A stretch of DNA of 64,000 nucleotides from assembly GCA_017446095.1 (NCBI GenBank), contig JAFSRN010000018.1, forward strand, positions 1-64,000, in the 5' to 3' direction. The stretch is from Eubacterium sp. (GTDB lineage Bacteria > Bacillota > Clostridia > Oscillospirales > Acutalibacteraceae). The notes beneath the pieces were generated by a model that saw nothing but the letters and a program-made list of their open reading frames with translations, was not told where the DNA came from and made no database searches. Positions 3,455 to 26,756 of this stretch are shown here, piece after piece. The position numbers and the translations under genes are program-made. Position 1 is the stretch's first letter; the number at the start of each line of letters is the position of its first letter.

Positions 3455-3775
3455 TTATAACGGACGAGCGGTGCTCGTCCCTACGAATCGTTGATAATAC
3501 GCACATACCGTAGGGACGACCATTGGTCGTCCGCAATTGTAGGGAGCGGCCCTTGGAGCGGCGCCTCACCCTTTTGTCACCTGCGGTGACATTTCCCCTC
3601 ACAGGGGAATCACCCCGACGATCCAAGGATGCATCGTTCCGCGAAATCCCGTAGGGGCGATTCACGAATCGCCCGCCAACCTGTAGGTCGCGATGCCCAC
3701 ATCGCGCCGCCAATCCGCAGGGGCGGGTTTCCTAACCCGCCCGCGGGTCGTCGAGGACGCCGACCCCTACGCAAT
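3455..3775. repeat. Mosaic array of REP-like hairpins with constant flanks and different stems
   Basis: At least six short palindromes follow one another. Each starts with GTAGG(G) and ends near CCGC, or the reverse, with different stem sequences: 3461-3484 (GGACGAGC stem, reversed), 3510-3534 (GGACGACC), 3539-3640 (composite, GGAGCGGC start), 3651-3677 (GGGCGATT), 3682-3711 (GTCGCGAT), 3718-3746 (GGGCGGGTT), 3746-3771 (reversed). Spacing is irregular and there are no unique spacers, so this is not CRISPR. The GTAGGGAGCGGC unit recurs at 5555, 5754 (reverse), 9774 and 26672 (reverse). Confidence 0.8.
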
Positions 3776-3828
3776 ACAATGAGTGTGAGCGTAGCTCGCC
3801 CAACCCCTTGAGCCTTGAGTCTATAAAC

Positions 3829-5316: not shown

Positions 5317-5345
5317 ATTATAATGTATATAATATTATTTGTCAA
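5317..5345 (-). promoter_or_regulatory. Promoter of rplJL
   Basis: Consensus TTGACA (5340-5345) and TATAAT (5317-5322) on the minus strand with exactly 17 bp between them, just upstream of the L10 leader and 20 bases past the stop codon of the transposase gene. Confidence 0.9.
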
Positions 5346-5364: not shown

Positions 5365-5868
5365 TTATATATAATACTTATCTTTACCGAGCACCCACTT
5401 TTTCGGATTTTCGTCAATGTATTGAATGTGATTCAGATAATCTTCCTCATCGCGTATAATGTGGTCGTAAAAGCCCGTTTGCCATATATTTGCGCCAATT
5501 TGTTTGTTGCAAAAACGTTTTAATGTGCCGATGTATTGCGAAAGCTTGGAATTTGTAGGGAGCGGCGACCCCGACGCTCCACTGAAATTCGCGGACTCTA
5601 TTGATATTATAATATGTATATGATTAGGCATAATAACATATTTTTCCGCAACAATATCGCTGTATATGCTGTTCATTGTTTTTATGTTTTCCTCAACAAC
5701 GGCGCCGTATTCTTTAAGCAGTACCTGCGGAGCGTCGGGGTCGCCGCTCCCTACAACCGAAGAAAGAACGCACTTCATATCTTTAACGCAAATCGTAACA
5801 AAGTACTTCCCGTTTGAAGAATAATCATATTTGTTGAGTCGTGGCAATTTTCTGCTTTTCTTTTCCAT
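5365..5868 (-). CDS. REP-associated tyrosine transposase (Y1/HUH, IS200-like; RAYT family)
   Basis: This 167-residue protein belongs to the COG1943/Y1_Tnp family of single-stranded DNA transposases that act on palindromic REP sequences. The HUH motif is in KYVIMPNHIHIIISIE (about residues 82-97). The candidate nucleophilic Tyr lies in the helix KLSQYIGTLKRFCNK, and the family ending YDHIIRDEEDYLNHIQYIDE is present, so the gene looks intact. Two stretches (VVGSGDPDAP and SGASGSPLPT) are encoded by perfect inverted copies of a 26-base REP hairpin (5555-5580 and 5729-5754). The ATG at 5868 was chosen over an upstream TTG at 5886 that lies in the rplA terminator tail. It sits between rplA and rplJ in the same direction, bracketed by the rplA terminator and the rplJ promoter. 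Confidence 0.88.
   Translation of the reverse strand: MEKKSRKLPRLNKYDYSSNGKYFVTICVKDMKCVLSSVVGSGDPDAPQVLLKEYGAVVEENIKTMNSIYSDIVAEKYVIMPNHIHIIISIESANFSGASGSPLPTNSKLSQYIGTLKRFCNKQIGANIWQTGFYDHIIRDEEDYLNHIQYIDENPKKWVLGKDKYYI
5555..5583. repeat. REP-like hairpin inside the transposase gene, copy 1
   Basis: GTAGGGAGCGGCGACCCC followed by GACGCTCC, with GGAGCG/CGCTCC as the stem. It is translated in frame as part of SGASGSPLPT. The 26-base core is identical, in inverted orientation, to copy 2 at 5727-5754. Confidence 0.85.
5727..5754. repeat. REP-like hairpin inside the transposase gene, copy 2 (inverted)
   Basis: Reverse-oriented copy of the unit at 5555, starting GCGGAGCGTCGGGG and ending GCTCCCTAC. 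It is translated in frame as VVGSGDPDAP. An almost identical free copy, with one base changed in the loop, lies at 26645-26672. Confidence 0.85.
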
Positions 5869-5883
5869 ACTCACTTTATAACA

Positions 5884-5916
5884 CAAATAAAAGGGAACGG
5901 CAAATCCGTTCCCTTT
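5884..5916 (-). terminator. Terminator after rplA
   Basis: AAAGGGAACGG (5890-5900) and CCGTTCCCTTT (5906-5916) form an 11-bp stem with a 5-base loop. On the minus strand it is followed by a T-rich tail. It closes the rpmG-to-rplA transcription unit before the transposase gene. Confidence 0.88.
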
Positions 5917-8672: not shown

Positions 8673-9776
8673 ATGGAAGTCTTGATTATCGGCTGCGGCG
8701 CTTCGGGTGCCGCGTGCGCCATAAGGTTAAAACAGAATAATCCCGACATTGGCGTTACGGTGCTGGAACATCTTGACGAGCCGTGCAAAAAGATACACGC
8801 AACCGGCAACGGCAGATGTAATATTACAAACAAAAACGCCGACGGCTTTGAAGTTACAAAGAGCTTTTTTGAATCGCTCGGTCTGCTTCTGCGCGAGAGC
8901 GGAGAGGGCAGAATGTACCCGTATTCAAATCAGGCGGCAAGCGTGGTTTCGGTAATGCTTTCCGCTTGCGAAAAGCTTGGCGTTAAAATTGTTACCGACT
9001 GCGTTACGCGCAAGGCGGAGAAGATTGACAACCAGTTCAACGTGTTCACAAACAAAGGCGTTTTTTCTTCAGATGTTCTTGTGCTTGCAACAGGCGGCAA
9101 GGCGCAGCCTGCGCTTGGCTCGGACGGCAGCGGCTATGCGCTTGCACAGGCTTTCGGTCACAGTGTAACCGAACTTTCGCCTGCACTTGTACAGCTTAAA
9201 TCCTCAACAAAGAACTGCCGCGCGCTCAAGGGCGTACGCGCAAAATGCAAGGTGAAAATTGAAACGAACGGCGAAATTATTGCCGAAGATTCGGGCGAAC
9301 TGCTGTTTACCGAGTATGGCATTTCGGGCATAGTTACTATGGATTTGTCCGGAAAAATCAGCGATGAAAAGTTGAAAAACGGCACCGAGCGCAGCGTTGC
9401 GATTATAGATTTTGTGCCCGAAATCAGCGAGGAAGAGCTGCTTGAGCACTACAATAAATTCGGCGATTTTGAGGGCGTTTTGCCGCACAAACTCTGCAAG
9501 GTTCTGCTTCGTCAGTCTGACGGCGACAGTGCAAAAATGGCGCAGTACATAAAGCATTGGCGGCTCATTGTAACAGGAACAAAAGGCTACGATTACGCAC
9601 AGATTACAAAGGGCGGCGTGCCGAACAGCGAGCTTAAGGACGGCAACGAATCTGCGCTGTGCAGCGACCTTTATATAGTCGGCGAACTGACAGACAACCA
9701 ATTCCGCTGCGGCGGCTTTAACCTCGATTACGCCTTCAACAGCGGTATTGCCGCGGCAGACAGAATTACAATGTAG
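8673..9776 (+). CDS. HI0933-family NAD(P)/FAD-dependent oxidoreductase (YhiN-like)
   Basis: The protein has 367 residues; the family (PF03486) usually has about 400. The N-terminal FAD-binding Rossmann motif is IIGCGASGAACAIRL (residues 5-19). The family signature HATGNGRCNITN follows at about 43-54, with GEGRMYPYSNQA, LATGGKAQPALGSDGSGY, and the C-terminal FAD-contact motif RCGGFNLDYAFNSGIAA. Substrate is unknown; homologues are sometimes labelled aminoacetone oxidase without firm evidence. GAGGT precedes the ATG. The stop codon TAG is formed by the first bases of the GTAGGGAGCGGC repeat, so the native 3' end may have been altered by the repeat. Confidence 0.9.
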   Translation: MEVLIIGCGASGAACAIRLKQNNPDIGVTVLEHLDEPCKKIHATGNGRCNITNKNADGFEVTKSFFESLGLLLRESGEGRMYPYSNQAASVVSVMLSACEKLGVKIVTDCVTRKAEKIDNQFNVFTNKGVFSSDVLVLATGGKAQPALGSDGSGYALAQAFGHSVTELSPALVQLKSSTKNCRALKGVRAKCKVKIETNGEIIAEDSGELLFTEYGISGIVTMDLSGKISDEKLKNGTERSVAIIDFVPEISEEELLEHYNKFGDFEGVLPHKLCKVLLRQSDGDSAKMAQYIKHWRLIVTGTKGYDYAQITKGGVPNSELKDGNESALCSDLYIVGELTDNQFRCGGFNLDYAFNSGIAAADRITM

Positions 9777-9868
9777 GGAGCGGCCCTTGGAGCGGCGCCT
9801 CACCCTTTTGTCACCTGCGGTGACATTTCCCCTCACAGGGGAATCACCTCGACGCTCCGCCCCCCTCA
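9774..9868. repeat. Composite repeat: inner hairpin element nested within a REP-like unit
   Basis: It starts GTAGGGAGCGGC and ends CGACGCTCCGCCCC, the two halves of the REP unit seen whole at 5555. In between are CCTTGGAGCGGCGCCTCACC, the stem GTCACC-TGC-GGTGAC, and TTCCCCTCACAGGGGAA. Nearly the same composite is at 3539-3630; the inner part alone recurs at 24797, 31553 and, reversed, 35656. Confidence 0.8.
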
Positions 9869-26449: not shown

Positions 26450-26579
26450 CAGCGTGTCGAAAAACCCAAGAAACAAATTCGACACGCTGTGAGGATGAAC
26501 GAAAAAGATGAAGAATCCCGTTTTCTTGCGAGCTTTGCTGTACGACGGTACCGCTTGTGAGCAAAAAACGGGAAACGCC

Positions 26580-26614
26580 AAAACCCGCAGGAACTCAATG
26601 TTTCTGCGGGTTTT
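26580..26614. terminator. Terminator-like hairpin
   Basis: AAAACCCGCAG (26580-26590) and CTGCGGGTTTT (26604-26614) with a 13-base loop. No gene ends directly before it. Confidence 0.55.
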
Positions 26615-26644
26615 CATTGATGTTATTTATCAGGTGCTTCGCAC

Positions 26645-26672
26645 GCGGAGCGTCGGGGACGCCGCTCCCTAC
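26645..26672. repeat. Free REP-like unit matching those inside the transposase
   Basis: GCGGAGCGTCGGGG then ACGCCGCTCCCTAC. It differs from the unit at 5727-5754 by one base (T to A) in the loop. Confidence 0.82.
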
Positions 26673-26724
26673 TATTTCTCATAAATAGTATTTCGGCATG
26701 GTTATGCACTTTTTCGACAGCCTC

Positions 26725-26756
26725 AAACCGCCCGCATTTTTGCGGGCGGTTTTTGC
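26725..26756. terminator. Second copy of the CCGCCCGC terminator hairpin
   Basis: AAACCGCCCGC-ATTTTT-GCGGGCGGTTTTT, a near-duplicate of 26422-26449 about 300 bases downstream. Confidence 0.65.

Follow-up and report, generated by a model that had tools for sequence, protein, structure and literature searches.

In a 64,000-nucleotide stretch of a Eubacterium sp. genome (Clostridia; contig JAFSRN010000018.1), hereafter called the window, the gene of a transposase of the RAYT type (REP-associated tyrosine transposase, or TnpAREP) carries two copies of a repetitive extragenic palindrome (REP) within its own coding sequence. The copies form a perfect inverted repeat (5553-5580 and 5729-5756, 28 nt each, 148 nt apart), for which 100 shuffles of the window gave no chance match. 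A preliminary description of this DNA had suggested that the enzyme has its substrate inside its own gene. The REP does occur twice in frame, and comparison with relatives suggests to us, with a probability of roughly 0.6, that the gene is a self-contained REP/RAYT unit in which the cognate hairpin is embedded twice in the gene of its enzyme. The relevant parts of the gene are:

5365..5886, minus strand: RAYT/TnpAREP gene, matching NCBIfam NF047646 and the TnpAREP of PDB 4er8; probable ATG at 5868
5729..5756, minus strand: REP of loop 1, which precedes the HUH motif in the protein; its GTAG is in the coding strand, and the encoded peptide is VVGSGDPDAP
5614..5622, minus strand: HUH motif codons H89-I90-H91; both histidines are invariant across alignments of 19 and 58 sequences
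5553..5580, plus strand: REP of loop 2, which separates the HUH strand from the DNA-binding helix; its GTAG is in the template strand, and the encoded peptide is GASGSPLPT
5488..5541, minus strand: residues 116-133, aligned with the alpha3 region of E. coli TnpAREP and covarying with the in-gene REP
5518-5520, minus strand: codon of K123, aligned with E. coli K82 (PDB 4er8 alignment)
5419..5421, minus strand: codon of the putative catalytic tyrosine Y156, invariant in the alignments of 19 and 58 sequences and aligned with E. coli Y115 through PDB 4er8

Both copies are translated in frame, from opposite REP orientations, into the peptides already given in the preliminary description, which had measured the repeat at 26 bases. 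Each copy is a GTAG-footed hairpin with a G.A mismatch, and the 26-mer is predicted to fold as single-stranded DNA with -9.9 kcal/mol (z -4.1). The assignment of the gene to the Y1/HUH transposases was also confirmed. The open reading frame encodes 173 aa from a TTG, the ATG at 5868 being the likelier start, and its product matches NCBIfam NF047646 (E 8.3e-17; 61 bits, beneath the curated cut-off of 80 bits), the TnpAREP of PDB 4er8 (E 8.3e-6) and, at 15 bits and thus beneath the cut-off of 23, Pfam Y1_Tnp. As expected of a RAYT, the protein combines an HUH motif and a single tyrosine with a REP-type Y1 profile; the E. coli counterpart of Y156, Y115, is the catalytic tyrosine of that enzyme. 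The dispersed family of GTAG-footed hairpins that accompanies such enzymes is present as well: a genome search for the REP, as had been proposed, returned 53 copies within 3 mismatches in the same genome (24 exact, the two in-gene copies included), and a reversed-pattern control with up to 3 mismatches returned 0. No cognate REP flanks the gene within 500 bp (3 mismatches over 24 nt), so that it is not a REPtron in the classic sense.

The paired layout recurs in relatives. Of 98 genomes, 32, that of the window among them, gave RAYT matches, and a set of 115 non-identical intact genes was drawn from the search of these genomes, at least 80 contig loci and three viral contigs. The first 43 genes had a query span of at least 140, and shorter or broken matches were set aside, most of them to be analysed as broken loci; 8 broken or partial and 5 duplicate sequences were removed when the full set was built. 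GTAGG is found in loop 1 of 102 of the 115 genes and CCTAC in loop 2 of 104; 99 genes have both and 8 neither, in agreement with the earlier suggestion that the trait recurs in clostridial members. A hairpin test detects GTAG hairpins on each strand of 93 of these genes. At least two copies of their own REP lie within 103 of the 107 REP-bearing genes, and 20 of the 107 have one within 500 bp outside the gene; the density of REPs in the near flanks still exceeds that in more distant ones (0.24 vs 0.04 per kb).

The inverted in-gene pair was found in none of 30 other RAYT loci of the phylum, one of which has a single GTAG hairpin. In E. coli the same test detected no GTAG hairpin inside rayT or in the 400 nt upstream, and one within the 400 nt downstream, and the RAYT of a Leptolinea (Chloroflexota) plasmid is flanked by GTAG hairpins on both sides and contains none. 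Searches of plasmids and phages added little (2 plasmid records, 1 phage record). An unverified phage record from human faeces contains the in-gene pair. A gene of the same genus (L123:2387-2788, genome G033) has neither REP and short loops, and possibly represents a pre-insertion form.

The REPs seem to be constrained as DNA. Their sequences differ widely among genes but mostly match within a gene: the mean match between a gene's own loops 1 and 2 is 21.2 (ungapped), versus 8.7 with the loops of other genes, a value equalled in 0 of 10,000 permutations (21.7 versus 8.8 for the first 43 genes alone, with gaps). Synonymous recoding of the loop peptides lowers the match to about 6.8, and the real match exceeds all 40 recodings in 98 of 99 genes when the genes' codon usage is applied, or in 96 of 99 with that of the loops. 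A set of 347 gene pairs was picked for the similarity of their REP peptides. Where two residues agree, the proportion of identical codons in pairs with less than 90% body identity is 0.80-0.95 for the REPs versus 0.43-0.63 for the body of the gene.

How the two copies of a gene differ points to the feature being kept. Two 26-nt cores could be compared in 98 of the 99 genes with both REPs (the second core of L116 is short). Bulged REPs occupy both loops in 55 of these 98, and in 16 of the 55 the copies are identical. Across the 55 genes the copies differ at 28 loop letters and 28 stem pairs, 23 of the latter compensated on both sides and 5 not, and the bulge is the same in both copies every time (G.A in 36, A.G in 13, A.A in 6). 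This pattern favours the individual hairpins, rather than a long stem between loops 1 and 2, as the conserved feature. The REP arrangement is real and recurrent, and it is apparently under DNA-level constraint. The preliminary description would have counted inserts with unrelated DNA in homologues against its idea. The REPs of relatives are indeed unlike one another; as they are mostly again GTAG hairpins in an inverted, matched pair, beyond the need of the peptide, the objection as it was framed does not apply.

The REP also covaries with one segment of the protein. When the REP identity of gene pairs was correlated with their protein identity over stretches of nine residues, rho reached 0.50-0.58 for those starting at residues 117-125 (residues 117-133), tapering on both sides; it was weak (0.25-0.32) for starts at 64-72 (residues 64-80) and near zero over the N-terminus, the HUH region and the C-terminus, outside the loops. 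A joint rank regression on 98 genes gave the segment after loop 2 a weight of 0.62, with 0 of 500 label permutations as large, and -0.09, 0.05 and -0.04 to the N-terminal, core and C-terminal segments. The segment after loop 2 aligns with E. coli TnpAREP from residue 77 onward, K82 standing opposite the invariant K123; according to the available text of PMC8266576, K82 lies in the DNA-binding helix alpha3 and touches the bulged base of the REP. Among the relatives, R124 is present in 51 of 55 genes with bulged REPs and in 5 of 43 others, and at residue 121 most G.A genes have T (29 of 36) and most A.G genes A (9 of 13). K-R at 123-124 accompanies bulged REPs, and K-S-Y/F-T occurs mostly with GGGAGGG stems. 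Because the REP covaries with the DNA-binding helix, the in-gene REP is probably the cognate substrate of the enzyme, which is as far as the comparison carries the original suggestion.

The distribution of REPs outside the genes is consistent with this. For four REP types, counted in 60 genomes of the genus (G083, of another genus, was excluded) after subtraction of the copies within RAYT genes, mean numbers in genomes holding the corresponding RAYT versus the others were 21.3 vs 0.5, 3.8 vs 0.2, 10 vs 0.2 and 19.3 vs 0.7, the counts of the first type including copies borne by a dispersed repeat. The excess is seen in all four types (p 4e-6 to 9e-5), also when holders are compared with RAYT-bearing genomes only (p 5e-4 to 9e-3).

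Several observations weigh against a self-contained unit. One or both REP marks are lacking in 16 of the 115 genes, L213 holds two unlike REPs and the second REP of L116 has decayed. The permutations behind the own-pair match and the helix correlation do not keep relatedness, and for the association of R124 with the bulge there are only 4 independent pairs on supported branches, of which about 3.5 agree and 0.1 disagree (median p 0.125, among the positions listed). As support within the tree is weak (a star on 6 of 112 inner branches) and independent pairs are few, the main guard against shared descent is the absence of signal in the other segments; phylogeny alone was rejected as the cause of the correlation since the N- and C-terminal segments are without it, the independent-pairs test having low power. 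The copy number of the window REP is inflated by a hitchhiking repeat. Genome G020 (68% complete) has a RAYT and 0 copies of its loop-2 REP outside the gene; G009, G026 and G034, as well as G064 and G096 from outside the genus, have many copies of a REP type and no detected holder; and some genomes counted as holders carry a broken RAYT. Finally, the in-frame inserts of RAYT genes were judged peripheral, with little effect on activity, in the available text of PMC6006769.

That published view leads to the alternative we take most seriously, although we consider it rather unlikely: the loops may be neutral landing pads, two tolerant places into which REPs insert repeatedly and where insertion or conversion keeps them alike, with no function in cis. 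The loops do accept variable lengths and tandem REP arrays (L122, L159, L166, L168), and L170, L175 and L209 have no REP marks and yet normal loop length. In L122 (G031:C73) five tandem copies stand in loop 1 and four more within about 200 bp past the gene end, an instance of array growth within a coding sequence. Neutral insertion, however, leaves unexplained the near-constant orientation and position of the pair and the covariation of each gene's REP with the DNA-binding helix. It also sits poorly with five genes of one REP type (L084_8398, L090_2387, L092, L093, L094), which retain the same two compensated stem differences between copies, so that the copies are not merely homogenised.

Regulation in cis, in which an mRNA stem of about 28 bp, or the enzyme bound to its own gene or message, would limit RAYT expression, appears improbable. 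The mRNA is predicted to fold with a long stem between loops 1 and 2 (z -4.2), and down-regulation by hairpins has been noted for IS200 transposases (available text of PMC3733652). Since 23 of the 28 between-copy stem differences break this long stem and preserve each hairpin, a long-range mRNA stem is disfavoured as the selected feature. Moreover, the loop-2 copy is present in the message as the complement (iREP), which TnpAREP reportedly does not recognise (available text of PMC8266576).

Equally little weight can be given to a REPIN-like mobile segment, in which the enzyme would excise or exchange the HUH core lying between the outward-facing GTAG REPs. Its support comes from decay and exchange. 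In the broken genes L126, L127 and L132 the core is lost and one GTAG...CTAC palindrome is retained. Of 19 broken loci compared, four (L139, L141, L180, L211) were excluded, their matches running over the full length in a single frame; among the remaining 15, the lesion lies within the loops in 12 (13 counting L128), when the loops make up an estimated 24% of the gene (p 8e-6). One core replacement is also apparent, between L096 and L104 (G007 and G002, both at the rplA-rplJ locus). These are about 92% identical over the first 100 bp of the RAYT and 95-98% from the gene end on, and about 50% identical from just before the loop-1 REP to some 110-130 bp beyond the loop-2 REP; the DNA directly upstream of the start differs too. 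In this one clear case the pair of REPs was replaced jointly with the HUH core and the greater part of the helix region, although the right end of the exchange lies past loop 2 and off the REP, which does not suit excision at the REPs. Neither do the deletions demand an enzyme: each REP is a near-direct repeat of its partner, so that slippage could produce them, and assembly errors at hairpins in metagenome-assembled genomes could mimic frameshifts.

That the loops were selected as Gly/Pro peptides, with codon bias accounting for the DNA likeness, is hardly credible: they are in frame and often Gly/Pro-rich, but synonymous recoding abolishes the match, on which ground protein-level convergence was rejected, and the peptides differ widely between REP types.

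With the self-contained REP/RAYT unit in mind, one may propose how it would work. A Y1/HUH TnpAREP whose single-stranded substrate is a GTAG foot plus hairpin would have one copy of this substrate on either strand, set into two coding loops, instead of or besides the gene flanks, and would bind and cleave the in-gene copies. Substrate and recogniser, being in one gene, would be inherited, transferred and exchanged jointly, and a RAYT entering a new genome would bring its own REP seeds and be hard to separate from them. The cost would be that the REPs are weak points, deletion between them removing the HUH core and leaving one double-footed palindrome. More tentatively, a nuclease gene may here store its own substrate on both strands around its catalytic core, helix and substrate forming one exchangeable specificity cassette. 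If this is true, these hundred-odd genes already sketch a RAYT-REP recognition code and speak to the question of how RAYTs discriminate REPs and why the pair persists. Since each gene brings a putative substrate of its own, sequence data suffice to match enzymes with targets in a large number of genes, and the covariation leads, as independent evidence, to the helix implicated by the E. coli structure; a recognition code can accordingly be drawn up and put to the test with oligonucleotides.

The position of the gene between the rplA terminator and the rplJ promoter, emphasised in the preliminary description, is correct:

5890..5916, minus strand: hairpin resembling a terminator that follows rplA and lies upstream of the RAYT gene, read from the sequence
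5317..5345, minus strand: site resembling a TTGACA/TATAAT promoter, ahead of rplJ and downstream of the RAYT gene, read from the sequence

The ribosomal setting itself carries no special meaning. At 30 rplA loci inspected, the rplA-rplJ gap is empty (235-277 bp) in 19, holds a RAYT or its remains in 5, with differing lineages, and is longer without a RAYT match in 6; one of these six, at a contig end, has a moderately longer gap, and the other five have other DNA and no rplJ within the 1.5 kb examined. Because occupancy varies in this way, significance of the ribosomal location was rejected: rplA-rplJ is an ordinary accretion site, a tolerant slot between terminator and promoter.

Two further features concern the REPs elsewhere in the window:

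26473..26726, minus strand: MITE-like (miniature inverted-repeat transposable element) dispersed repeat in which the third REP copy lies; its ends were determined on the L057 copy
3745..3770, minus strand: genomic REP of the same bulged design with a different stem; it differs by one letter from the REP in loop 2 of the C20 paralogue

The third copy (26647-26672, one mismatch) had been described as free; it exists, but it lies inside this repeat, whose blastn matches span about 130-260 bp and whose ends in L057 are TGTCGAAAAA and TTTTTCGACA. Of 30 of the 53 genomic copies whose flanks were read, 17 are in this one repeat, 2 in the RAYT gene and 11 elsewhere. Because the hitchhiking repeat carries so many copies, the copy number of the window REP was rejected as a clean measure of RAYT activity. 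The split copies noted earlier near 3539 and 9774 are real (3539-3624, the right half one letter different, and 9773-9858), and in both a second short repeat (TCACCCTTTTGTCACC...GGGGAATCACC) parts the halves in the same arrangement. The interval from rplL to the following gene (3480-3780) contains a cluster of several distinct GTAGG-type hairpin families, some of the same types as REPs within the RAYT genes of relatives. The paralogous RAYT (L080:2303-4321, G000:C20) has its own, different REP pair and is fused, without a change of frame, to the C-terminal end of an enzyme of the CCA-adding type (Pfam PolyA_pol, PolyA_pol_RNAbd, HD); N-terminal extensions of similar appearance are present in L087 (G007) and L088 (G002), whose open frames measure 615 and 563 aa.

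An in-frame REP inside a RAYT gene is already known, since the available text of a 2018 paper (PMC6006769) reports in-frame REPs in tnpAREP genes of subclass 2.4, equivalent to RAYT group 4. The window gene resembles this subclass in its NH[IFV]H and WQ motifs (as NHIH and WQ), in its shortness without a post-core extension and in having REPs in frame within the gene; its YIDENP departs by one letter from the YIxNNP given for the subclass. According to the same text, the insertions of subclass 2.4 generally lie between HuH and Y, and the subclass is common in Cyanobacteria and Bacteroidetes, with scattered members in other groups; here, in contrast, there are two inserts, before and after HUH, inverted and matched, in what the record titles give as Clostridia. 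An inverted pair bracketing HUH, DNA-level constraint, helix covariation and cassette exchange were not found in the literature searched or in the text of PMC6006769, its supplementary Figure S10 aside, and the available text of PMC3686654 yielded nothing on in-gene REPs; the paired layout and the REP-helix match appear new. The E. coli REPtron (subclass 2.2) shares HUH, tyrosine, alpha3 helix, GTAG foot and bulged hairpin, but it has its GTAG hairpin downstream instead of in the gene. Pseudomonas REPINs and their RAYTs share the inverted REP pair and RAYT-specific REP families, but as described in the available text of PMC3116915 the pair is not arranged around a coding core. Intragenic GTAG/CGTC REPs also lie in frame within genes, but these are assorted unrelated host genes, RAYTs not being named as hosts in the available text of PMC3733652. 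Double-foot REPs have been proposed to stem from a central deletion of an inverted dimer (available text of PMC6006769), and the relics described above are natural examples that fit this route from an inverted REP pair to a double-foot REP.
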